This document shows positions 3,903-28,056 of a stretch of 28,495 nucleotides of DNA, piece by piece. Every line of letters begins with the position of its first letter. Within the stretch, counting starts at the first letter, position 1. Source of the DNA: a virus. Position numbers and translations under genes: made by a program. The stretch lies in the IMG/VR virus record IMGVR_UViG_3300042880_000142, positions 1 through 28,495 of that record, one strand, 5' to 3'. The notes under the pieces were generated by a model. It did not search any database. It was not told where the DNA came from and saw nothing but the letters and a program-made list of their open reading frames with translations.

Positions 3903-4832
3903 ATGGCAAAAGATAAACAAAACGATTCGGGCGTAGTTCTTTATGCGTTCGGTCATAAGGCTTACTTGTATGCAGCTTATAACATAGCGTATTCAATTAA
4001 GAGATTCAATCCATCGGTTCACATCACTTTGTTTTGCGAGAATGAAAACACAACACGCTCTACAATTTGGAACTGTCAAGTGTTTGATCGATTGATTCAG
4101 ATTAACCCTGAACGAATCCGAACTAACGGGAAGTTTGATCCTGGCAAAGTAAAGGTCACAATGTACGATTCATTGCCGTACAAGTACAATCTATACTTAG
4201 ACTGCGATGCTGTTGCTATTAAAGACATTCAGCCTTTAATCGATGAGTTAATTGCGGACGGCAAAGAATACATTTCACACACGGTCGGATATCACACAAT
4301 CGATCAAGGTGTTGGGCTTATTCCATCAATGCAATGGGCAAAGGCTGAAAAGGTTTGGAAGCATTGGGATCTTACCAAAGAATCCGTTTTACCTGCGATC
4401 AATTCATCCTTACAGTTCATTGTTAAGTCGGATAAAGCCGCTGAGATTTACGCATGTGCTTCATTCTTTTACTTATCAAATCCATTGCCTATTAAAGACC
4501 TACATATTAAGTGGGGCGGTGGTCAACCTGATGAGTTATACATGAACGCTGCATTTGCTCGATTAGGTTACGATCCTGCACCAACGAATCAACCTAAGGC
4601 AGATATTGGAGAAGGTGGTTACATTCACTTCGCAATGAGGCGAAATGCCACCATCGAACAAGTACAAGAACAGTTCTACTTACAATCATATTACGGAGGT
4701 CGTGGGTTTACTGCTTCATTCTATACTGAGTGGATTGATCGGTTACTATTTAAGTGGCATCACGAAACAAAGGATTCTCACCTTTACAAGATTTCAGAAA
4801 TCGTTAAGAACAAACACGCTAATAAAAAGTAA
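3903..4832 (+). CDS. GT-A fold glycosyltransferase
   Basis: 309 aa. The N-terminus (VVLYAFGHKAYLYAAYNIA) reads as the first strand and helix of a nucleotide-sugar-binding GT-A fold. NLYLDCDAVAIKD (about residues 96-108) supplies the DxD motif (D100, D102) that coordinates the divalent metal and nucleotide sugar in GT8-like and related transferases. A later GGGQPDELYMNAAF segment resembles the acceptor-side conserved region of such enzymes. No membrane segment is seen, so it should act in the host cytoplasm. Likely targets are virion proteins, DNA bases or a host glycan; the sequence does not decide which. It is followed by a methyltransferase overlapping by one base (TAATG), suggesting a coupled modification pair inside the virion gene block. 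Confidence 0.85.
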   Translation: MAKDKQNDSGVVLYAFGHKAYLYAAYNIAYSIKRFNPSVHITLFCENENTTRSTIWNCQVFDRLIQINPERIRTNGKFDPGKVKVTMYDSLPYKYNLYLDCDAVAIKDIQPLIDELIADGKEYISHTVGYHTIDQGVGLIPSMQWAKAEKVWKHWDLTKESVLPAINSSLQFIVKSDKAAEIYACASFFYLSNPLPIKDLHIKWGGGQPDELYMNAAFARLGYDPAPTNQPKADIGEGGYIHFAMRRNATIEQVQEQFYLQSYYGGRGFTASFYTEWIDRLLFKWHHETKDSHLYKISEIVKNKHANKK

Positions 4833-5356
4833 TGGCAAAGGATACTTCACATATTGACTTTTGGAACAGCGAGAAAGAGGTTGGTGAATTTCTTGCATCA
4901 TTGATTAAACTTACTAAGGCTCGAACAGTTTTAGAGGTCGGAGTGTTTCAAGGTAATACATCAATGCCAATGATCGAAGCTTTACCGATGGGAGGCTATT
5001 ACGTAGGTATTGACATCGAGGACTTACGACTTGACCAGAATATTAAGGGTTGGAAGAAAGACGGTTGTGTTGTTGACTTTATAGAAGCATCATCTCATAA
5101 GGCTTTAGAGAAATTGCCTACTTATCATTTCGATTTAATATTTGTTGATGCTGCTCACCATTGGGATCACATCTTACCGGAATGGAAATTAGTTGAGAAA
5201 CTACTTGGGCATGGTGGCGTTATTGTTTACCACGATTCAATGCACATTGCAGATGTTAACCGATTAATGGTTTATGCAATGAACTACGGATGGGAATCGG
5301 CAACCCTTAAAACACCTGAGTTAAGAGGCTTAACGATCTTAAGTAAAAACTTGTAA
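4832..5356 (+). CDS. Class I SAM-dependent methyltransferase
   Basis: 174 aa with a recognisable Rossmann methyltransferase core of the Methyltransf_24/cephalosporin-hydroxylase-like type. Motif I is TVLEVGVFQGNTS (about 32-44), the acidic end of strand 2 is GIDIED (about 59-64), DLIFVDAAHHWDH (about 101-113) contains the conserved Asp/His strand, and GGVIVYHDS (about 128-136) is the next strand. The family methylates small molecules, sugars or proteins; no nucleic-acid target domain is present. Its start codon shares one base with the stop of the glycosyltransferase, so the two probably modify the same substrate, for example O-methylating a transferred sugar. That pairing is inference. Confidence 0.85.
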   Translation: MAKDTSHIDFWNSEKEVGEFLASLIKLTKARTVLEVGVFQGNTSMPMIEALPMGGYYVGIDIEDLRLDQNIKGWKKDGCVVDFIEASSHKALEKLPTYHFDLIFVDAAHHWDHILPEWKLVEKLLGHGGVIVYHDSMHIADVNRLMVYAMNYGWESATLKTPELRGLTILSKNL

Positions 5357-5454: not shown

Positions 5455-7350
5455 ATGATACTTACACCACTTCAAATCGATTTAATCGTTAAGAACTTTG
5501 TTGAGGTTCATAAGGGGCGAATGAATGCCGATAAGTCAAGGCATCAATACTTACCTGAATATTGGACGGGTTACAACTATTGTCTTCAACAATACGATGC
5601 GATTGAACCGCACGTAAGGCAAGATGTATTCCCTGCTAAGTTATTCGAGCAACGTGCGCCTAACCAATCTGAACTACAAGCAAAGTACATAAGAGCGAAT
5701 TACAAAGGAACTACTACGCCAGTATTCGAGGACTTTGTAAATACTGTAGGTCGTGCTTTTGCCGAACAGAATTGGTCGTTAAAGGTCAATCAAGAACTTG
5801 ACAGTCGTTACGTTGGCGAATCGTTTAAGAAGTATGCAGGCGAACAAATTCCAATCTTTGGTTCTTTGGAGTTATGGGCTAAGTCTATGCTGCCAACATT
5901 GAAGCTTAAGGATGCAAACGGTGTAATCGCTATACGTCCAATGTCGCTTGATTACATGCGGTCAGAAGAGAATGAGGTTATTACGGATGCAAACGGTAAC
6001 CCCGTGCTATCTAATGAACTTATAAAGCCTATTCCGACTTATCATTCAGTTCATAGAATCGTAGGTCAGCAGCTTGGTGAATGGTACTTAATTATTACTG
6101 ATGAAAGATCAGAAGTTTTAGTAGGTAATAAAAAGGTTCGTGAAGGAATTGTTCTTGAACTTTACGATGGGCAGTCAATTTATCGCATTGAGCAAACGGG
6201 CAAAAAGGAAAGTTATAAGTTTGCAGATCCGATTATATTCTATCAGCACGAACTTGGCTATGTTCCGGTTATTAAACTCATGGGCATTCCGATCTTAGCA
6301 GCCGGCACACTTGTTTATAATTCTCCCTTTGTTACGGCTGTTGGATTGCTTGACTTGGTGCTTTTGGATCAGTCTTATTTGCAGATCAGTAAGGCAACAT
6401 CAGCATTCCCGTTTATGGTTGCTATCGGTGACATTTGCGACTTTGAGCAAAACGGTAATAAGTGCAACGATGGTCAAATTTGGACGGGCGAAAGAACAAC
6501 GACTTGTCCTGCTTGTTCAGGTGCAGGTATTCGTTCTCGATTCAGTCCAACTGGTCAACTACTTATTAAGCCTAAGACTTCACTTGCCGATGGTGACAGT
6601 GGGTTATCCGGTAAATACTTAGAGTTCGTTTCTCCTTCAATGGAAACGCTCGAATTCTTAAGGCGTGAAATAAACTTCCAAACAGATAAGGCTCGTTCAA
6701 TTCTACACCTCAACACTTCAGATCAGGCTGCAAATTCTGGTGAAGCAAAAACTGCAACGGAAAGCATAAGCCGTAACCGTGCAACTCACGCATTCATTAA
6801 ACCTATCTCAGATCAGATGTTTGCGATTGTGGAGTTCACTTACAACACCATCGGACAAATGCGTTACGGTGAATATTACGGTGGAATTGAATTGCAGAAA
6901 CCAACGACATTCGATATCGCAACACCTTCAGATTATCTTTCGATCATTACCGAGGGAGTTAACGCAGGAGTGCCGCCACACGTAACATATCAGAACCTTT
7001 ACAACTATGCTTATTCAATAAACTCGTCTAACACGAAAGTCGTTAAGATGCTTGATTTGATCTTTGCAGCCGATAAGATTCTGACATTGTCCAGTGCTGA
7101 CATCATTGCCCGAATTGCAAACGGTACTGTTGAAAAGTATCAGGACATCTTACACACTTCAGCACCTCAACTTATTGCGATGCTCGATGGTACATGGGAG
7201 GCTTCAGAACTTTACCCTACCTTCTTCGATCAGCCTATTGCAGATCAGGTGGCACAACTTGAACAAGCTGCTAAAGACGAACTGATTGAAGTTGGAGATC
7301 CTATTGCTGAACAGATACGATTACTTACTAATCCTCCAATCGGGGCTTAA
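5455..7350 (+). CDS. Portal protein
   Basis: 631 aa. Length, position directly before a MuF-like gene, scaffold and capsid, and overall pattern identify the dodecameric portal that forms the DNA entry vertex. These include an N-terminal alpha/beta wing, a long middle part and a helical C-terminus with FLRREINFQTDKARSILHL followed by ATESISRNRATHAF. A four-cysteine cluster (C328, C337, C351, C354; CX8C-X13-CX2C, ending CPACSGAG) looks like a zinc-ribbon insertion and is unusual for portals generally, although I associate it with portals of Bacteroidota phages. The start at 5455 abuts the preceding short frame. The stop shares one base with the next start (TAATG). Confidence 0.85.
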   Translation: MILTPLQIDLIVKNFVEVHKGRMNADKSRHQYLPEYWTGYNYCLQQYDAIEPHVRQDVFPAKLFEQRAPNQSELQAKYIRANYKGTTTPVFEDFVNTVGRAFAEQNWSLKVNQELDSRYVGESFKKYAGEQIPIFGSLELWAKSMLPTLKLKDANGVIAIRPMSLDYMRSEENEVITDANGNPVLSNELIKPIPTYHSVHRIVGQQLGEWYLIITDERSEVLVGNKKVREGIVLELYDGQSIYRIEQTGKKESYKFADPIIFYQHELGYVPVIKLMGIPILAAGTLVYNSPFVTAVGLLDLVLLDQSYLQISKATSAFPFMVAIGDICDFEQNGNKCNDGQIWTGERTTTCPACSGAGIRSRFSPTGQLLIKPKTSLADGDSGLSGKYLEFVSPSMETLEFLRREINFQTDKARSILHLNTSDQAANSGEAKTATESISRNRATHAFIKPISDQMFAIVEFTYNTIGQMRYGEYYGGIELQKPTTFDIATPSDYLSIITEGVNAGVPPHVTYQNLYNYAYSINSSNTKVVKMLDLIFAADKILTLSSADIIARIANGTVEKYQDILHTSAPQLIAMLDGTWEASELYPTFFDQPIADQVAQLEQAAKDELIEVGDPIAEQIRLLTNPPIGA

Positions 7351-8458: not shown

Positions 8459-9209
8459 AGAAAAGTTTGCCCCTAAAGATGAGATCGGTAAGCAGATCGG
8501 AAAAGTAACGGCTGTACTCGCTCAAAAAGCAAAAGACATATTCAATCCGTTTGGCATTGAAGTAAATGTCGAAGAGTTAAAACAAGGGAAGATCGAAGAT
8601 GGATTTGTGAAGCTTGGTAAACTTGCTCACGAAAACTACACGACCAAAGTAAATGAGTTGACAAAACTTGCTGAACAAGGTGGATCGACTGAAGTTATTA
8701 AGGAGTGGGAAGATAAGTTCAGTAAGTCTACTAAGAAGATCAGCACCTTAGAAGAGCAACTCAAACTTAAGGACGAAGCGATCGTTACCTTAAAGACTGA
8801 ATACACACACAAAGAAGTTCAACGCAAGAAAGACGATTTCTTCTTTGGCACTTTGTCTAAGGTAGAACTTGATCCGGAAGTAGCAACAAAGGCAAACAGT
8901 AAAGCTTCGTTGTTATACGATGGATTCGTTAACAAGATTAAGTCTTCGATCAAGATTGAAGAGGATGAGAAAGGTTCGTTCTTTATCGCTGATGCTGAAG
9001 GTAACCCAATTAAGAACCCTGCAAAGGCTCACGAACATTTAACGCTTGAACAATACTTGCAAGCTGAAGCAAATAACTACGGCATCGCAAAGAAAAACCC
9101 ATCAGCCGGAAAGACTATGGGATCTTTTCAAACGAAAGCAAATAATTCAAATGATGAACCTACAAGACCTTCAAACATTAGCCCTCGTGCTATGGGGATA
9201 AGACCTTAA
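8370..9209 (+). CDS. Capsid scaffolding protein
   Basis: 279 aa, very rich in Lys and Glu, with predicted long helices and a coiled-coil stretch around residues 80-165 (ISTLEEQLKLKDEAIVTLK). This composition and the position between MuF-like protein and major capsid protein are typical of phage scaffolds such as the GP20-like family. The C-terminus is flexible and Ser/Asn/Pro rich and ends RAMGIRP, a likely capsid-interacting tail. Scaffolds nucleate procapsid assembly and are then released. The start at the first of two tandem ATGs (8370, 8373) lies inside the preceding gene. A strong terminator follows 22 bases after the stop. Confidence 0.75.
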   Translation: MMKPEEALKVVEFLGLNELESHEEARTKFEEKFAPKDEIGKQIGKVTAVLAQKAKDIFNPFGIEVNVEELKQGKIEDGFVKLGKLAHENYTTKVNELTKLAEQGGSTEVIKEWEDKFSKSTKKISTLEEQLKLKDEAIVTLKTEYTHKEVQRKKDDFFFGTLSKVELDPEVATKANSKASLLYDGFVNKIKSSIKIEEDEKGSFFIADAEGNPIKNPAKAHEHLTLEQYLQAEANNYGIAKKNPSAGKTMGSFQTKANNSNDEPTRPSNISPRAMGIRP

Positions 9210-21482: not shown

Positions 21483-22025
21483 ATGGAAACACTAACCCAC
21501 TACAAGAAACTACGCAACCCTGACTACATGGGAGCGTACTGCATGCCAACTGACGGAGGCGAAATTATACTAACGATTAAGTCCGTGCGTGTCGAATCCG
21601 TTGCGAATCCTGACGGTAAGAAATCAGATTGCACCGTTGTTCACTGGATGGAACAGAATTGGAAACCGATGATTCTGAACGCAACTAACAGTAAGACAAT
21701 TTCCAAGCTTGCAAAGTCACCATTTATTGAAAAGTGGCAAGGCTTACAAGTTCAGATTTACACCGCTAAGATCAAAGCTTTCGGAGAAGAACATGATGCG
21801 TTACGAATCAGAACATTTGCACCGAAGCCAACCGCAGGACCTACACCCGATCCGATCATTGACGAACTGGCAATCAAGGAATCGATCGATAAGTTAAACA
21901 CCTGCACTACCGAGGAAGGACTAACCGCAATGTTTAGATCATTCACGCCACAGATGCAGAAGATCGATTCTATTATTAAAGAAGCGAAGATGGTTAAAGA
22001 CATGATTAAAGCGACTGAACAATGA
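21483..22025 (+). CDS. Conserved recombination-associated protein, possible ssDNA-binding partner
   Basis: 180 aa. The first 110 residues follow a pattern I associate with Bacteroidota phage genes located before YqaJ exonucleases: HYKKLRNPDYMGAY, EIILTIKSVRVE, CTVVHWMEQNWKPMILNATN, KTISKLAKSPFIEKWQG, VQIYTAKIKAFGEEHDALRI. The alternating strands would fit an OB-like barrel. A Pro-rich linker (PKPTAGPTPDP) leads to a helical C-terminus, an arrangement seen in single-strand-binding proteins. The stop overlaps the exonuclease start by ATGA. No RecT, Redβ or Erf signature is visible, so this is the best candidate in the window for the strand-annealing or SSB role. Function is inferred from context. 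Confidence 0.65.
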   Translation: METLTHYKKLRNPDYMGAYCMPTDGGEIILTIKSVRVESVANPDGKKSDCTVVHWMEQNWKPMILNATNSKTISKLAKSPFIEKWQGLQVQIYTAKIKAFGEEHDALRIRTFAPKPTAGPTPDPIIDELAIKESIDKLNTCTTEEGLTAMFRSFTPQMQKIDSIIKEAKMVKDMIKATEQ

Positions 22026-22636
22026 TACTGCACAACATCGAACAAAGAACAGCCGAATGGTATCAGATACGAGTAGGCAAAGTTACCGGATCAGAATTCA
22101 AAAAAGTAATGTCAAAGAATTGGATGGACTATGCCGATAAGATCGCAGCCGAACAATTGACCGGATCAAGCCTTGACGATGAAGATGGATTCGTAAGTTA
22201 TGACATGCAACGTGGAATCGATTTAGAGCCATTAGCCGCAGCAGAATATCAACAGCGCAACAATATTCAACTTGATCTATACGGCTTTATTCAGTCATCT
22301 AAATTTGAGCATTTAGGACTTAGCCCCGATGCAGTTGGTTTAGAAGTTTCTTTCGGTGTTGAGATCAAAGCACCTAACGTAGCAACTCACATTCGATACA
22401 TTCGCCACGAAAAGATTCCTGCAAACTATTACGATCAGATTCTATGCTATTTCGTAGTGTGCGATTCCATCCGACACGTTGACTTTGTTTCTTATTGCCC
22501 CGATCTTGAACAATACCCGTACTGGCAGAAACGAATTACACGGGATGAAATGCAAACCGAAATCGAACAAGCCGAACAATCGCTTACCAAATTCTTCAGA
22601 CAAGTAGAAACCGTTAAAACCCTTATCACACAATGA
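22022..22636 (+). CDS. YqaJ-family lambda-type exonuclease
   Basis: 204 aa with the family motifs in order: EQRTAEWYQIRVGKVTGS (about 7-24), MQRGIDLEPLAAAEY (about 62-76, with E69), LGLSPDAVG (D103), GVEIKAPN (E114 and K116, the E-x-K pair) and YYDQILCYF (Q139). These make the two-metal PD-(D/E)xK nuclease site of lambda exonuclease and YqaJ. The enzyme would resect double-stranded ends 5' to 3', leaving single strands for annealing during recombination or replication. It overlaps neighbours on both sides by ATGA. All catalytic residues appear intact. Confidence 0.9.
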   Translation: MILHNIEQRTAEWYQIRVGKVTGSEFKKVMSKNWMDYADKIAAEQLTGSSLDDEDGFVSYDMQRGIDLEPLAAAEYQQRNNIQLDLYGFIQSSKFEHLGLSPDAVGLEVSFGVEIKAPNVATHIRYIRHEKIPANYYDQILCYFVVCDSIRHVDFVSYCPDLEQYPYWQKRITRDEMQTEIEQAEQSLTKFFRQVETVKTLITQ

Positions 22637-23196: not shown

Positions 23197-23444
23197 GCAG
23201 ACAACGATCAGGACGCACCGGAGTAAAAGAAGAAGTCGTAGTTGATTATTTCGATTTTTCTTTACTTGTTAGAGGCTATTACATCGAAGGAGAAAAAGCC
23301 GATAGAGATTATCCAGGTACTGCTTCAGACTTCGAAATTGAAAGCATAACATTAATCGAAGGAACATTACTTGACATTATTGACCAAGCACTTAACCATG
23401 ATGAATTGGTTAACGACTGCATAAAAGAAATCGAACGATCATGA
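23193..23444 (+). CDS. Small acidic conserved phage protein
   Basis: 83 aa. The pattern DYFDFSLLVRGYYIEGE…DYPGTASDFEIESI resembles small uncharacterised phage proteins with an 'FDF.L.V.G.Y..g' opening and 'FEI..I' strand. The remainder is acidic and helical. ATGA overlaps on both sides support translation. No function is known to me for this type. Confidence 0.65.
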   Translation: MSRQRSGRTGVKEEVVVDYFDFSLLVRGYYIEGEKADRDYPGTASDFEIESITLIEGTLLDIIDQALNHDELVNDCIKEIERS

Positions 23445-24067
23445 ACTTCACACTTAAAACAATTCATCAGGTAATCAAGGAAGAATTACCTGAACCGTAT
23501 TTATCACTCGCCAATAAATACACTACACAGAATAGGATTGTCCGAGATCTTCCCGATGCGATACTAAAATTAGTACCGTGGCAACCATCCGGCACAGACG
23601 AGGGTTATCAATTTTGGGAGCATATTTATTTATGGGCTAAAGGAATCAGAAAGACCTTACCTGAATTTCTTGATGCTCCAGTTAAGGTAAAATCCTACAG
23701 CTTCAATTCAAGATACAACGATTGTCTTAACGAGGCGAAATTAGCAAACTCAATCATCGTTAAAATGTTTGGTCGTGTTCTGCTAAATCGGGAAATTGAT
23801 GAAGTCTACAAGCGTTACATTATCTTCAATTATCTTCTTTCAATCCGTGGGGATAGGTTTGGGTTTGCAATGATCGGACGAGCTGTTGCAGAAGCGATTG
23901 GAAGATCAACACCTTTTAACCATTCTACGGTCTATCATGCCCAATTGTCAGAATCAAATCTTATCGATACAAACGATTCGACCTACCTAATGATGAAGCG
24001 AGTGTTCGATCACGAAATGATGATGAACAGCGCAGTTGAATGGCACGAAGATGTTATTGATTACTAA
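23441..24067 (+). CDS. Protein with DnaA-domain-IV-like C-terminal DNA-binding segment
   Basis: 208 aa. The N-terminal half (about 1-85) includes VPWQPSGTDEGYQFWEHI, a short pattern also used in small phage proteins. The C-terminal half (about 110-200) is helical, and its segment MIGRAVAEAIGRSTPFNHSTVYHA (split as MIGRAVAEAIGRS and TPFNHSTVYHA) reads like DnaA domain IV, where 'IG..FggRDHSTVlHA' binds the DnaA box; the HSTV core (161-164) is intact and Arg-Asp is replaced by Phe-Asn. No AAA+ Walker motifs are present, so it is a DNA-binding module without ATPase. It closes the recombination operon and directly precedes the structured RNA and replication genes, suggesting an origin-binding or regulatory role. 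Confidence 0.65.
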   Translation: MNFTLKTIHQVIKEELPEPYLSLANKYTTQNRIVRDLPDAILKLVPWQPSGTDEGYQFWEHIYLWAKGIRKTLPEFLDAPVKVKSYSFNSRYNDCLNEAKLANSIIVKMFGRVLLNREIDEVYKRYIIFNYLLSIRGDRFGFAMIGRAVAEAIGRSTPFNHSTVYHAQLSESNLIDTNDSTYLMMKRVFDHEMMMNSAVEWHEDVIDY

Positions 24068-24083
24068 ATAATTCTTATCTTTA
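24057..24083 (+). promoter_or_regulatory. Weak promoter before the structured RNA
   Basis: TATCTTTA (24076-24083) differs from TAnnTTTG in the last base, and TTG at 24057-24059 gives a 16-base spacer, shorter than usual. It would start an RNA at about 24088-24090, exactly where base-paired structure begins. Confidence 0.35.
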
Positions 24084-24206
24084 CAGCACGTTCAGAGGTG
24101 AGAGCCTGAACCCGCAAGACATTAACCGCCCAATGGCGGCTACGTCAGAAAGTAGTTAACGCTACTATCTGCTCTCACCGTAGCCTTCATTGGGCTTTTG
24201 CGTTTT
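24084..24206 (+). ncRNA. Multi-helix structured RNA with competing folds
   Basis: Five complementary helices fit in 120 bases. P0: GTTCAG (24090-24095) with CTGAAC (24106-24111). P1: GGTGAGAGC (24097-24105) with GCTCTCACC (24171-24179), nine perfect pairs. P2: CCGCC (24126-24130), CAAT loop, GGCGG (24135-24139). P3: AGTAG (24151-24155) with CTACT (24162-24166). T: GCCCAATGGCGGCTAC (24128-24143) with GTAGCCTTCATTGGGC (24180-24195), 15 of 16 positions paired including one G-U, followed by TTTTGCGTTTT. P0 and P1, and P2 and T, share strands, so the RNA must choose between folds, or P1 and T form a pseudoknot. The next ATG (24210) is 4 bases after the T tail. A leader switch, a trans-acting RNA or an origin element are possible; no known class is recognised. 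Confidence 0.7.
24128..24206 (+). terminator. Terminator-like 16-bp stem within the structured RNA
   Basis: The T stem described for the RNA encloses 36 nt and is followed by TTTT GCG TTTT. The interrupted T tract makes it weaker than other terminators here. It could end the recombination operon and be antagonised by hairpin P2 (24126-24139), which uses the same 5' strand. Confidence 0.5.
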
Positions 24207-24209
24207 AAT

Positions 24210-24404
24210 ATGAACAATACAGATCGAATAATTATAAAGCAATATGATTTAGAAATGGGAAGGCTTCACGGAGCGATCACACCAAATATGAATCGTGAAA
24301 CATTAATTTCTTCTATTGTAATTTTACAGAAGTTTTTGTTGATGCCCGATGATGTAAAACTTGAAAAGGCAAAAAAGTATTTTAACGATCCAAAGCCTTT
24401 TTAA
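24210..24404 (+). CDS. Small protein behind the structured RNA
   Basis: 64 aa from the ATG at 24210 (a TTG at 24198 lies inside the terminator tail and is rejected). MNNTDRIIIKQYDLEMGRLHG is followed by a helical stretch (RETLISSIVILQKFLLM) and a basic end (KAKKYFNDPKPF). No family recognised. Its start codon follows the structured RNA by only 4 bases, making it the most direct target if the RNA controls translation. The replication gene follows after one base. Confidence 0.6.
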   Translation: MNNTDRIIIKQYDLEMGRLHGAITPNMNRETLISSIVILQKFLLMPDDVKLEKAKKYFNDPKPF

Positions 24405-24405
24405 A

Positions 24406-25086
24406 ATGTTTAACTACTTCAATTATTTCTATCATTGGATAGAAGAAAATCCCGATAAGGTCGATCCGTATATTACTGCAGTTTATTTTGCATTGCTTAA
24501 CCGTGCAAATAAGTCAGGATGGAAAGATAAGTTTGCAATCATTCTTGTTGACCTGCAGGAAACTTGCGGAATCAATTCACGAACTACAATGTTAAAAACA
24601 CTTGCTCGGTTAGAAGAATTTGGATTTCTGCAGACTGTTTCAACCACAACAAATCAATACAAAAATAGAGTAATATGCCTTCCATTAAATGAAAAGCACT
24701 TGGATAGCACGTGGAAAGCAGATGAAAAGCACGTGGATATCACTTGGACACATAATAAGACTATTAAGATAGATAAGACTATAAAGACTATAAAGACCAA
24801 AGGGGCGGATTTAAGTAAGGTCTATTCTGAAAACGAATTAGTCAATAAGCACTTCATCGATTTTCTGCAGAACAGAATCGAAATAAAGAAACCCGCTACT
24901 CAACGTGCTGCAGATTTATTAGTTACCGAAATGCGTAAACTTTACAAAACACCCGATGAAGCAATACAAGGAATTAATCAATCAATAATGAAAGGATGGA
25001 CTGGATTATTTCCAGTAGGTTCGCAAAATAACAAACCTCAACAACCTGCCCAATTCTCACGGGCATCACTAAACCACTTCGTATGA
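24406..25086 (+). CDS. Replication protein with winged-helix N-terminus
   Basis: 226 aa from the ATG at 24406; a TTG start at 24361 would overlap the previous gene by 44 bases and is not needed. Residues about 1-95 (FNYFYHWIEENPDKVDPYITAVYFALLNRANK … CGINSRTTMLKTLARLEEFGFLQTV) form a helix-turn-helix/winged-helix domain like replication O/DnaD-type initiators. A Lys/Thr-rich linker (KTIKIDKTIKTIKTKG) leads to a C-terminal helical part with MRKLYKTPDEAIQGINQSIMKGWTGLFP, split here for length, resembling the end of phage initiators that contact the helicase. ATGA overlap with the DnaB-like gene supports an initiator/helicase-loader role. Confidence 0.75.
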   Translation: MFNYFNYFYHWIEENPDKVDPYITAVYFALLNRANKSGWKDKFAIILVDLQETCGINSRTTMLKTLARLEEFGFLQTVSTTTNQYKNRVICLPLNEKHLDSTWKADEKHVDITWTHNKTIKIDKTIKTIKTKGADLSKVYSENELVNKHFIDFLQNRIEIKKPATQRAADLLVTEMRKLYKTPDEAIQGINQSIMKGWTGLFPVGSQNNKPQQPAQFSRASLNHFV

Positions 25087-26471
25087 AACAAGCAATCGAC
25101 ATAGAACAACGAGTTATATCACTCCTGCTCACTACTGAAAATCCTGAACATGATTTCTTTGCCTACATCAAGAAAGATTATTTCACAACTGAGCAATACA
25201 TCAAAGCTTACGAATTAATCGAACTTCTCAGAGCCGATAAGAAGCCAGTAAACATAACTTCATTCACGCACCTAAATCGGGAAAAGAAATTACTATCACA
25301 TCCCGACCATATTAAGATCATCACATCATCTGACACGCTATCATACGGTGAACCATTTATGTATTACGTCCACGAACTTCGTGAGGCATACATCAAACGT
25401 GAAATAAGCAGAATCGTTACAGAAGAATCAGTCGGACTATACGATCGAATCGATGCTTCACAATCAGCTGCCACCATCGTCAAGAAACTGACCGAACTTA
25501 TGGACACTGGTACAACCTCGGATAACATCATTACCATTTCAGAACTTACCCGAAATGAACGTGAAGCATACTTCAGACGGCAATCACTTAATCAAGCAGG
25601 CAAGACTTCAGGGATCGAAACGGGACTATCAGCACTCAATAAGTTCACCGGTGGTTGGCAATCTGAATTTATAATCTTAGCAGGTCGACCATCGATGGGT
25701 AAGACAGCACTTGCATTATTTCACGCAATGCGATCTGAAGAACCTGGCATTTACATTAATCTCGAAATGGGACAATCTCAACTTTCGCAAAGGTTGATTC
25801 TCCAATACTCGGACGGAATGATTAACTCAGCACGACTTCGAGATGGTAACTTAACTCAACCCGAACTACACGCTTTTGAATCCACCATTTCAAAAATAGA
25901 AAACAAGCCGTTTACAATTTACGATAAGCCTCGATGCGGTGTTCATGAAGCGATAAGGGTAATTCGTAGGGAAGCAAGAAAAGGACGGTGCAAATGGGTT
26001 GTAATCGATTACCTGCAACTAATGACAATCGAAGGTTACAGAGGCGGAAATCGTGAAGCCGAAGTAGCAGAAATTAGTAAGACACTCAAAGCAGCACAGA
26101 AAGAACTTGGAATCCCGATAATAGCCCTTGCACAGTTGAGCCGTCAAGTAGAGCAACGAGCCGATAAGAAACCAATGCTCTCCGATCTTCGAGAATCAGG
26201 ATCACTTGAACAAGATGCGGACACTGTATGCTTCGTTTACCGTCCTGCTTACTACGACTTGAAAAAAGAAGATGGAGGTGAATACACTAACGAGATATTT
26301 TACCTTTTTGAAAAGCATCGACAAGGTGCAACTGGGACTGTTGAGTTTAGGCATAACCAATACATGACCGATTTCTTTGATGCAAAACAAGAACCTTTCA
26401 ACTCTTACCTACCCGTAGCAGAATCCACATCACTAAACCACATAAGACAAAATGAAGATCTACCATTCTAA
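25083..26471 (+). CDS. dnaB: DnaB-like replicative helicase
   Basis: 462 aa. The N-terminal domain (about 1-140; IDIEQRVISLLLTTENPEH opens it) is the DnaB collar. The RecA-like C-terminal domain has Walker A GRPSMGKTA (201-209), YINLEMGQSQLSQRL (about 224-238), Walker B VVIDYLQLM (306-314), ALAQLSRQVEQR (about 348-359) and DLRESGSLEQDAD (about 368-380). These are the standard DnaB motifs and all key residues are present. It would unwind the phage fork as a hexamer, loaded by the preceding initiator. The final RHNQYMTDFFD region is typical of the C-terminus. It overlaps the next small gene by 20 bases. Confidence 0.95.
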   Translation: MKQAIDIEQRVISLLLTTENPEHDFFAYIKKDYFTTEQYIKAYELIELLRADKKPVNITSFTHLNREKKLLSHPDHIKIITSSDTLSYGEPFMYYVHELREAYIKREISRIVTEESVGLYDRIDASQSAATIVKKLTELMDTGTTSDNIITISELTRNEREAYFRRQSLNQAGKTSGIETGLSALNKFTGGWQSEFIILAGRPSMGKTALALFHAMRSEEPGIYINLEMGQSQLSQRLILQYSDGMINSARLRDGNLTQPELHAFESTISKIENKPFTIYDKPRCGVHEAIRVIRREARKGRCKWVVIDYLQLMTIEGYRGGNREAEVAEISKTLKAAQKELGIPIIALAQLSRQVEQRADKKPMLSDLRESGSLEQDADTVCFVYRPAYYDLKKEDGGEYTNEIFYLFEKHRQGATGTVEFRHNQYMTDFFDAKQEPFNSYLPVAESTSLNHIRQNEDLPF

Positions 26472-26681: not shown

Positions 26682-26849
26682 ATGGCACGACTGAAGAAAT
26701 ACAATGAAGCAACTAAGCACCTTAGTAAACGAGTTCCGGCAAGTCAGTTAAAGAAGTGCCACGAATTAATTGATGAATACCTAACCCCATTTGAAGCACC
26801 GAAAGATGATCGAACTTATAAACCAACCGAGCCAAAAGGCACAATTTAA
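26682..26849 (+). CDS. 55-aa basic protein upstream of methyltransferase
   Basis: MARLKKYNEATKHLSKRVPA opens a Lys-rich helical protein with SQLKKCHELIDEYL and a polar tail (PKDDRTYKPTEPKGTI). The start lies 15 bases after the early-type promoter. It overlaps the methyltransferase gene by 44 bases. The size and basic helical opening would fit a small DNA-binding regulator, but no motif is decisive. Confidence 0.55.
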   Translation: MARLKKYNEATKHLSKRVPASQLKKCHELIDEYLTPFEAPKDDRTYKPTEPKGTI

Positions 26850-28056
26850 CTTAAAAGGTTTAACAGTTCTTTCTTTATTTGATGGTATGAGTTGCGGACA
26901 ACAAGCACTTAAACGTGCTGGTATTGGTGTATCTGAATACTATGCATCCGAAATTGATAAACACGCCATAGCCGTTACCATGCACAACTATCCAAACACA
27001 AAGCAGTTGGGAAGTGTTGTTAACGTGGATGGTTACTCATTGCCTAAGATTGATCTTTTAATAGGAGGATCTCCTTGTCAAAGTTTTTCATTTGCCGGAA
27101 AGCGTAAAGGAATGTCAACGAAGGATAGTCAAGAAATATTGACTTTGAATCATTACCTACAATTGAAAGCTGAGGGCTTTGAGTTTGAAGGGCAAAGCTA
27201 TTTGTTTTGGGAGTATATGAGATTGCTGAACGAATGCAAACCAACATACTTTCTGCTTGAGAATGTATTGATGGGCGAAAAATGGGAAAAGGTTTTGAGC
27301 AGGGCTATTGGCGTAAATCCTATCGAAATAAACTCTGCATTGGTATCGGCTCAGAACAGAAAGAGATTGTACTGGACGAATATTGGAATGCAACCCAGTG
27401 GTTTGTTCGGTGATTTGGAAAGCATAATTAAGCAGCCCAAAGACAAAGGCATATTGCTAAAAGATATACTTGAAATTGAAGTTCATAAAAAGTATTTTTT
27501 AAGCGAAAAAACTGTTGCAAAAATTACAAGAACCAACAATGGAGAAAGATGTTTTACAACTGCTGATAAAGCATTATGTCTGGCCGCTGGGTATCACAAA
27601 CAAGGTAGAGATAATCAATACATCGTAGCAAGTAGAGGAAGAAACCCCGAAAATCCAAAAAGCAGAAAGTCGGGATTAGAAACCGAGCAACAGAACAGAG
27701 TTTATGATGCTAATGGGATCAGTCCTGCGTTGTGTGCATATAAATCTGATTTACTGATTACAGGACTTAATGAAAATCAGCAAAAGAAATTTAATACTAA
27801 CATAAATTCAGACAAAGCCAATACACTTACGCTTGCACAAGGAAGAATGGGCAGCAGTAATGAATATATGGATTCGGTTAGTAAAATTGCTAACATAACA
27901 TCTGTTATCAGACGACTAACTCCAATAGAATGCGAACGATTGCAGACAGTTGCCGATAATTACACTTCCGTTGTCAGCGACACTCAAAGATATCGGATGC
28001 TTGGAAATGGATGGACTGTTGATGTAATTGCTCACATATTCTCTTATTTAAAATAA
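26806..28056 (+). CDS. DNA (cytosine-5) methyltransferase
   Basis: 416 aa from the ATG at 26806 (an in-frame TTG at 26791 would add five residues). Motif I is LSLFDGMSCG (about 22-31), motif IV GGSPCQSFSFAGKRKG (88-102 region, catalytic C91), motif VI LLENV (about 150-154), motif VIII SAQNRKRLYW (about 181-190), and motifs IX-X RRLTPIECERLQ and LGNGWTVDVI at the end. Target recognition lies between about 190 and 340. All catalytic elements are intact. It methylates cytosine C5 in a specific sequence that cannot be read from the protein. No restriction endonuclease is next to it, so protection of phage DNA from host restriction is the likely role. Confidence 0.92.
   Translation: MIELINQPSQKAQFNLKGLTVLSLFDGMSCGQQALKRAGIGVSEYYASEIDKHAIAVTMHNYPNTKQLGSVVNVDGYSLPKIDLLIGGSPCQSFSFAGKRKGMSTKDSQEILTLNHYLQLKAEGFEFEGQSYLFWEYMRLLNECKPTYFLLENVLMGEKWEKVLSRAIGVNPIEINSALVSAQNRKRLYWTNIGMQPSGLFGDLESIIKQPKDKGILLKDILEIEVHKKYFLSEKTVAKITRTNNGERCFTTADKALCLAAGYHKQGRDNQYIVASRGRNPENPKSRKSGLETEQQNRVYDANGISPALCAYKSDLLITGLNENQQKKFNTNINSDKANTLTLAQGRMGSSNEYMDSVSKIANITSVIRRLTPIECERLQTVADNYTSVVSDTQRYRMLGNGWTVDVIAHIFSYLK

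Follow-up and report, generated by a model that had tools for sequence, protein, structure and literature searches.

We find that the segment from 24,091 to 24,206 on the plus strand of the IMG/VR virus record IMGVR_UViG_3300042880_000142, analysed as a single window of 28,495 nucleotides, holds a real RNA element that sequence comparison confirms as a member of a structured RNA family. The family is new to Rfam and widespread in phages, with 66 distinct versions that carry a perfect 9-bp partner, mostly on IMG/VR phage contigs. In its members, a hairpin loop, GGUNNNAKC, forms a pseudoknot with a strand beside a terminator-like stem. The code in this pairing differs between close relatives yet still matches itself, which hints at a form of RNA control over phage replication not described before. 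The family stands at the head of replication-region genes, and its natural allele swaps amount to ready-made compensatory mutants.

All the helices described in the first-pass annotation of this DNA, namely a 9-bp helix, small hairpins, a 6-bp hairpin, a long stem and a T-rich tail, are present between 24,080 and 24,210. The minimum free energy (MFE) of this segment is -48.5 kcal/mol (z -5.59), and none of 200 dinucleotide shuffles folds as well. What sets the structured RNA proposed there clearly beyond chance is compensatory change in the pseudoknot, long stem and P3 hairpin of relatives. On the plus strand the element opens with the P1 hairpin, TTCAG/CTGAA (24,091-24,110), which in the window is 6 bp long (GTTCAG at 24,090-24,095 with CTGAAC at 24,106-24,111). 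Its recognition loop consists of an A followed by GGTGAGAGC and carries the code GAGAG. The loop sequence GGTGAGAGC (24,097-24,105) is the 5' strand of the pseudoknot, identified from the sequence, from covariation and from a partner-blind pattern, and forms a perfect 9-bp match with the 3' strand GCTCTCACC at 24,171-24,179. The latter lies directly 5' of the 3' strand of the terminator-like stem, hereafter T. T pairs 24,128-24,144 (24,137 unpaired) with 24,179-24,195 (24,186 unpaired), forming 16 pairs with one mismatch in the window's MFE structure, and is also supported by changes across the family. Between the 5' strand of T and the 3' strand of the pseudoknot, the MFE structure places the P3 hairpin (24,146-24,171), whose last G is shared. 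The overlapping and competing strands noted earlier are also seen, as a local hairpin CCGCC-CAAT-GGCGG (24,126-24,139; arms 24,126-24,130 and 24,135-24,139) competes with the long stem T, and C24179, common to T and the pseudoknot, can pair either with G24097 of the pseudoknot or with G24144 of the long stem. Likewise, the proposed pseudoknot between the 9-bp helix (there called P1) and T stands, its 3' strand adjoining the terminator-like stem. The stretch CGCAAGA (24,113-24,119) pairs with 24,196-24,202 in the window's own MFE structure, a pairing absent from the RNAalifold consensus.

The annotation had recognised no known RNA class here, and Rfam agrees: the element finds no family at the gathering score or at E-values up to 5, with only four weak unrelated matches, c4 not among them, and no covariance model of a known Rfam riboswitch matches it. 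A gathering-score scan found no c4 (RF01695) in the window, L028, L044, L052, L176 or L206, and ARAGORN found no tRNA or tmRNA in the window. We found no published description of this RNA in the literature searched, which included few subscription papers.

Relatives were reached through both protein and pattern searches. A search with the O-like replication protein of the window led to 12 IMG/VR loci, and a recognisable copy of the RNA lies upstream in 11 of them; the twelfth, L009, begins too late to include the RNA position. The copy in one locus, L006, has 99.3% identity across 143 bases; its upstream flank is different, and the gene behind it is another one. A pattern derived from P1 matched 107 stretches of viral contigs, a second pattern lacking the P1 stem matched 96 stretches and brought in further P1 stems, and a third matched seven. 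Scanning loci L001-L119 for perfect 9-bp partners only gave 99 occurrences, 66 of them unique, including that of the window; 18 matches were set aside (nine class 3 loci, L114, which is cut by a contig end, and eight lone matches that lack a partner). Altogether, 88 unique elements of classes 1 and 2 were read, 81 and seven respectively. A covariance model gave one strong match per class 1 locus (L002-L119), and one in 22 of 23 whole class 1 records; minus-strand matches of up to 32 bits mirror the stems. The remaining record, IMGVR_UViG_3300044695_002763 (G022), has two: this 52-kb contig holds two related replication modules (L167 and L168) 34.7 kb apart with different codes, and a DnaB-like gene lies behind the element of L167. 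We considered that G022 might hold two prophages; the 34.7-kb spacing is close to the 34-36 kb of related contigs, which makes an assembly of two strains as likely, and this record was not used as evidence.

The searches of bacterial sequences yielded no bacterial genome carrying the element. On bacterial genome contigs there were 47 pattern matches; among the 13 listed, a 9-nt complement is present in L143 and absent in 12, and none of the 47 loci gave a model match above 27 bits, compared with at least 69.9 for full-length class 1 members in L002-L119. Neither pattern matched any of 395 genomes from the phylum of a Chitinophagaceae metagenome-assembled genome (G037). DNA searches of named phages, each with one element, found no match to the RNA of the window, to class 1 L082, to class 2 L176 or to class 3 L015.

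Formation of the pseudoknot, T and P3 is shown by covariation in an alignment, A1, of 66 RNAs (65 distinct rows). A1 comprises 65 of the 66 unique versions plus L013; the incomplete L084 was left out, and the window sequence, minus its first T, replaces L001. RNAalifold finds P1, T and P3 in A1 unprompted. With the pseudoknot added to this structure, 96.7% of cells are paired and 19 pairs are changed on both sides, and the covariation of the whole structure is 0.400, compared with 0.141 after shuffling and no more than 0.090 after a shift of one to three columns. The annotation had suggested covariation among homologs as a check, and homologs do show compensatory changes: the pseudoknot is paired in all 65 distinct rows (100%) with four pairs changed on both sides, and both-side changes occur in 10 of 13 modelled pairs of T and five of six of P3. 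P1 varies in a single row of A1, by a U-G pair, and relatives found through the other patterns have different P1 stems, such as TTTAG/CTAAA and TTAAG/CTTAA. Within the pseudoknot, the letters GGU...A.C and G.U...ACC are constant, and NNN and K vary.

Since requiring a perfect partner selects for pairing, this bias was removed with a partner-blind pattern, which matched 101 times; one match, at a contig end, was dropped, and 80 unique fragments resulted. In 80 of 80, the loop has its complement in the leader on the same strand, over 9 bp in 72 and over 7 bp in eight, all of class 2 with the code CGCAG; none lacks a complement. A complement to another code was found in 0 of 720 trials. G-U pairs make up 0 of 264 variable pseudoknot pairs and 75 of 831 paired cells in T. 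This last number also bears on whether the inverted arms are read as DNA, in an origin, packaging or recombination site. Such an element would fit the position beside replication genes, and the arms are indeed inverted repeats; the G-U pairs kept in T and the covarying hairpins nevertheless point to RNA, as does a promoter box at a fixed distance (see below). Cumulative GC skew, the one measure used for origin placement, peaks near 18-21 kb, away from the element, and we regard a DNA-level role as highly improbable.

The variable letters NNN and K of the loop constitute the code, of which there are 11 in A1, 12 in class 1 and 13 when class 2 is included. Those seen consist of A, C or G, followed by AG, GA, GU or GC, and then A and G or U. 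Among 44 RNA pairs with at most three differences in 93 backbone columns, the code differs in 18, and 17 of the 18 show two or three changed pairs at a time. The per-column rate is 0.233 in the code, compared with 0.010 in T, 0.038 in P3 and 0.031 in the linker, for pairs that are not independent of one another. For example, L007 and L025 have flanking DNA that is 73-86% identical and differ in one backbone column and in two code pairs. On a backbone tree, built from few columns in phages that recombine, at least 28 code changes are required, compared with a mean of 39.4 (32-46) in 200 shuffles. This pattern fits selection for exact, discrete codes, and the incongruence could in part stem from recombination in which the middle of the RNA is swapped.

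The same pattern can be set against a leader in which a ligand or protein chooses between T and read-through and the code reflects neutral compensatory drift and recombination. The invariant letters around the pseudoknot (GGU/ACC, A5), the leader position and the terminator-like end would all be expected of such a sensor. Drift, however, should leave G-U steps, which are missing from the variable pseudoknot pairs although tolerated in T, and should proceed by single pairs, unlike the multi-pair steps of nearly all close RNA pairs that differ in code. Recombination of the middle of the RNA could still yield multi-pair differences; on balance, we consider a sensing leader decidedly unlikely.

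Other properties of the codes are less clear-cut. Duplexes within a code have a mean energy of -14.1 kcal/mol and those between codes -5.4 kcal/mol, and some cross-code duplexes come near own-code strength (-13.2 and -12.1 kcal/mol). The codes are no more wobble-orthogonal than random sets (2 versus 2.5), and among 84 hand-picked loci there is no avoidance of a shared code within samples (six of 34 pairs share a code, 6.5 expected). All 81 class 1 elements have a purine as second code letter, as would suit the UNR portion of a U-turn loop; the base before UNR is G and not Y, which counts against this likeness. YUNR loops are described as common in antisense recognition in one treatment of the subject (PMC4485353).

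The context of the element is that of a leader. What the annotation called a weak promoter is the box TATCTTTA (24,076-24,083, plus strand), which ends 7 nt before P1 and matches TAnnTTT, which we take to be a Bacteroidota-type promoter. Across the family, 78 of 81 class 1 elements have a TAnnTTwN box whose end lies 4-7 nt upstream of P1, counting all boxes at that distance (74 of 81 for the last box alone), compared with 94 of 7304 background slots. Downstream, a start codon follows closely behind the T-rich tail as had been noted, with a gap of 3 nt and not 4: the ATG at 24,210 opens a 64-aa ORF (24,210-24,404, plus strand), which, translated from an upstream in-frame TTG at 24,198, has no PHROG or Pfam match at E 0.001. 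Next on the same strand are an O-like replication initiation gene (24,406-25,086; phrog_678, E 3.6e-13) and a DnaB-like replicative helicase gene (25,083-26,471; PF03796, E 5e-77). A C-5 cytosine DNA methylase gene (26,791-28,056; PF00145) lies downstream of the helicase. The upstream neighbour of the element is an ORF at 23,441-24,067; further upstream is a RecE-like exonuclease gene (22,022-22,636; phrog_149 and phrog_434), and a recombination system of this kind could help the swapping of short modules.

The link to replication genes made in the annotation thus holds for the window, and the first genes vary across the family. An ORF with an ATG start begins no more than 20 nt behind the T-run in 84 of the 88 class 1 and 2 elements; no ORF was called in the remaining four (L195, L040, L052 and L084). 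The first genes were classified by their N-terminal motif, and models were run on six and then five of them. By this measure, 45 of 88 are DUF6291-like (function unknown; YRS/SFxLY motif), with DUF6291 found in three of three tested; against PHROGs, three of four hit nothing but families without a known function, and the fourth has primosomal and O-like families among its matches as well. Five of 88 are O-like by motif (L097 confirmed), and others include an HNH endonuclease, a helicase and, by eye, a DNA methylase-like protein. HNH-type endonuclease genes lie between the RNA and the O-like gene in L007 (from 4476 onwards, by Pfam) and in L006 (about 4690-5000, by eye). The replication context is therefore shown for the window and some relatives, and we infer it for the remaining members; with so many DUF6291-like first genes, the term replication operon is itself partly our reading. 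A start codon so close to the element, whichever gene follows, suggests a leader that acts in cis.

This spacing also weighs on the view that the element is a stand-alone phage small RNA acting on the host or other phages, in which the pseudoknot only stabilises the fold and ORF proximity reflects genome compactness. The element, about 115 nt long, forms a unit in itself that runs from a promoter box to a terminator-like end, it is kept while neighbouring genes change (L006, and the phages Danklef and Freya described below), and class 3 elements (L015 and relatives) end in a terminator hairpin with no ORF start directly behind. Against this view stand the ORF start, close to the T-run in nearly all elements although the first gene varies, and the fast code turnover, which a purely structural helix does not explain. 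We judge a stand-alone role unlikely.

The loop core and the coupling to a terminator-like hairpin recur in three other layouts; as these are the only features shared, common descent of the layouts is something we infer. In class 2 (nine loci, for example L176), P1 is a long hairpin, and its loop and that of the terminator hairpin are complementary; in L176 both hairpins are in the MFE structure. Class 3 (nine loci, four unique) has the loop inside the terminator hairpin itself and the complement 54-56 nt upstream; L076 has a variant code on both sides. The contig of L015 also carries an abiF RNA (RF03085, 42.4 bits) at 7273-7308 on the plus strand, the only Rfam match there, and a further structured RNA may, judged by eye, lie at 8540-8700, past the class 3 element. 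Class 4 extends the same pairing, tentatively, to isolated phages: in the Polaribacter phages Danklef and Freya, GGTGGAA is followed 52 nt later by TTCCACC adjoining a terminator-like stem, and is preceded by a TATATTTGC box. This assignment rests on a 7-bp match noticed by eye, and 122 of 6356 other GGTNNNA sites (1.9%) have such a complement 20-150 nt downstream, an upper bound for chance as it includes reversed family arms. The element is common to both species, with an alignment that stops shortly behind the T-run; in Freya it lies directly before a gene, and in Danklef one ORF intervenes. The Danklef counterpart of that gene is 33% identical to the O-like gene of the window over 48% of the query. 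No 7-nt GGTNNNA pairing was found in the leaders of related genes in the Riemerella phages GRNRAP2, CRP5 and CRP6 or the Nitratiruptor phage NrS-3, and likewise none in L212; those in L210 and L211 are located inside a gene and not in a leader. The isolated phages, with their possible relative of the element, offer an entry point for study.

Taken together, these features are compatible with an element that would be the leader of a replication-region operon and a co-transcriptional attenuator, in which code pairing sets termination and provides allele-specific autorepression, a reading that we hold to be about equally likely to be right or wrong. By sequence, the parts of a leader are present: promoter box, P1 with its recognition loop, T with its T-run, and a start codon directly behind, the GC-rich stem and T-run thus lying between promoter and start codon in the family. 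An attenuator is favoured by this anatomy: T and the T-run stop at the start of the first ORF, and the pseudoknot strand is made immediately before the 3' strand of T. Completion of T would stop transcription ahead of the first gene, and T formed in read-through RNA would occlude the start codon. The pairing of loop and strand could form before T is complete and, by contesting one pair of T, would set the frequency of termination. As the T domain averages -30.2 kcal/mol and the code duplex about -14, T would be expected to prevail at equilibrium, and any effect of the pairing should be kinetic; by a geometric estimate, the full 9-bp pseudoknot, T and P3 should not all fit together comfortably, as on the other side T and P3 are joined by two bases. 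Two observations count against an attenuator: class 3 elements have no ORF start directly behind, and the window's own T-rich tail, TTTTGCGTTTT (24,196-24,206; last T run 24,203-24,206), is interrupted and is paired within its MFE structure. The attenuator reading does not rest on the label of replication proteins, so that its standing is unaffected by the weakness of that label.

In the trans part of the attenuator reading, terminated RNAs of the same allele would pair with the nascent leader, giving allele-specific autorepression in the control of replication or superinfection. The code changes fast yet always matches, from which it would follow that the partner matters by allele, and allele-specific action in trans would be the simplest reason for the codes. 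Intramolecular pairing, on the other hand, should usually beat a partner in trans. The annotation had also raised action in trans, but no target inside the phages is clearly enriched: in 112 loci of at least 6 kb, many of them partial genomes, the own loop is matched seven times and the own complement three times, compared with 2.9 and 4.25 per code for other codes. The trans part thus appears weakened by this result, by the lack of sample avoidance and orthogonality, and by the strong cross-code duplexes, and the annotation's interpretation as a whole is partly supported. A broader proposal, which we entertain tentatively and with more doubt than confidence, is an RNA compatibility system in which each leader would carry one of a dozen or so discrete codes, terminated leaders would silence same-code operons in trans, negative frequency dependence would keep exchanging codes among leaders that are otherwise nearly identical, and lytic-looking phages would also take part.

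The promoter type suggests that the hosts are probably Bacteroidota; those of class 4 are Polaribacter. Among the class 1 and 2 records, many of which are fragments, a tyrosine integrase (PF00589) occurs in 0 of 34 and a resolvase (PF00239) in two of 34, making classical prophage immunity unlikely for these classes. Three Polaribacter phages encode an integrase according to one report (PMC8776804).

Three kinds of known RNAs invite comparison. Riboswitches of the preQ1-I and SAM-II type resemble our family in that a compact pseudoknot, whose linker is A-rich, is coupled to expression; our family differs from them in its fast-changing code helix and in having no Rfam match, and no metabolic gene was seen among the first genes examined. 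Plasmid copy-control RNAs work by attenuation and produce allele-specific incompatibility, and their partner RNA is transcribed from the opposite strand, whereas the leader RNA has both partners in one transcript. For ColE1 RNAI/RNAII and pIP501/pT181, replication control by U-turn loop pairing is described (PMC4485353). Our best reading, by analogy, is that the leader RNA would work like the c4- and P4-type immunity RNAs without necessarily being one of them. In c4, RNA and target belong to a single transcript of the same strand, and P4 immunity relies on early termination ahead of replication genes. Like the leader RNA, c4 (P1/P7, RF01695) and the P4/N15-type immunity RNAs pair with complementary stretches of phage transcripts, and allele differences in c4 are described as making P1 and P7 heteroimmune (PMC12197685). 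The leader RNA differs in having one complement, about 70-80 nt downstream beside the terminator-like stem, with none found elsewhere in the phage, in having no Rfam match, and in residing on records mostly free of an integrase. Its hosts are probably Bacteroidota, whereas c4 appears under Proteobacteria and phages in one listing (PMC2864571). A role for RNA in recognising kin is known so far from the c4- and P4-type RNAs of temperate phages, and the family described here makes it testable whether kin recognition through RNA, and with it a mutual limit on replication, also occurs in phages with no known repressor.
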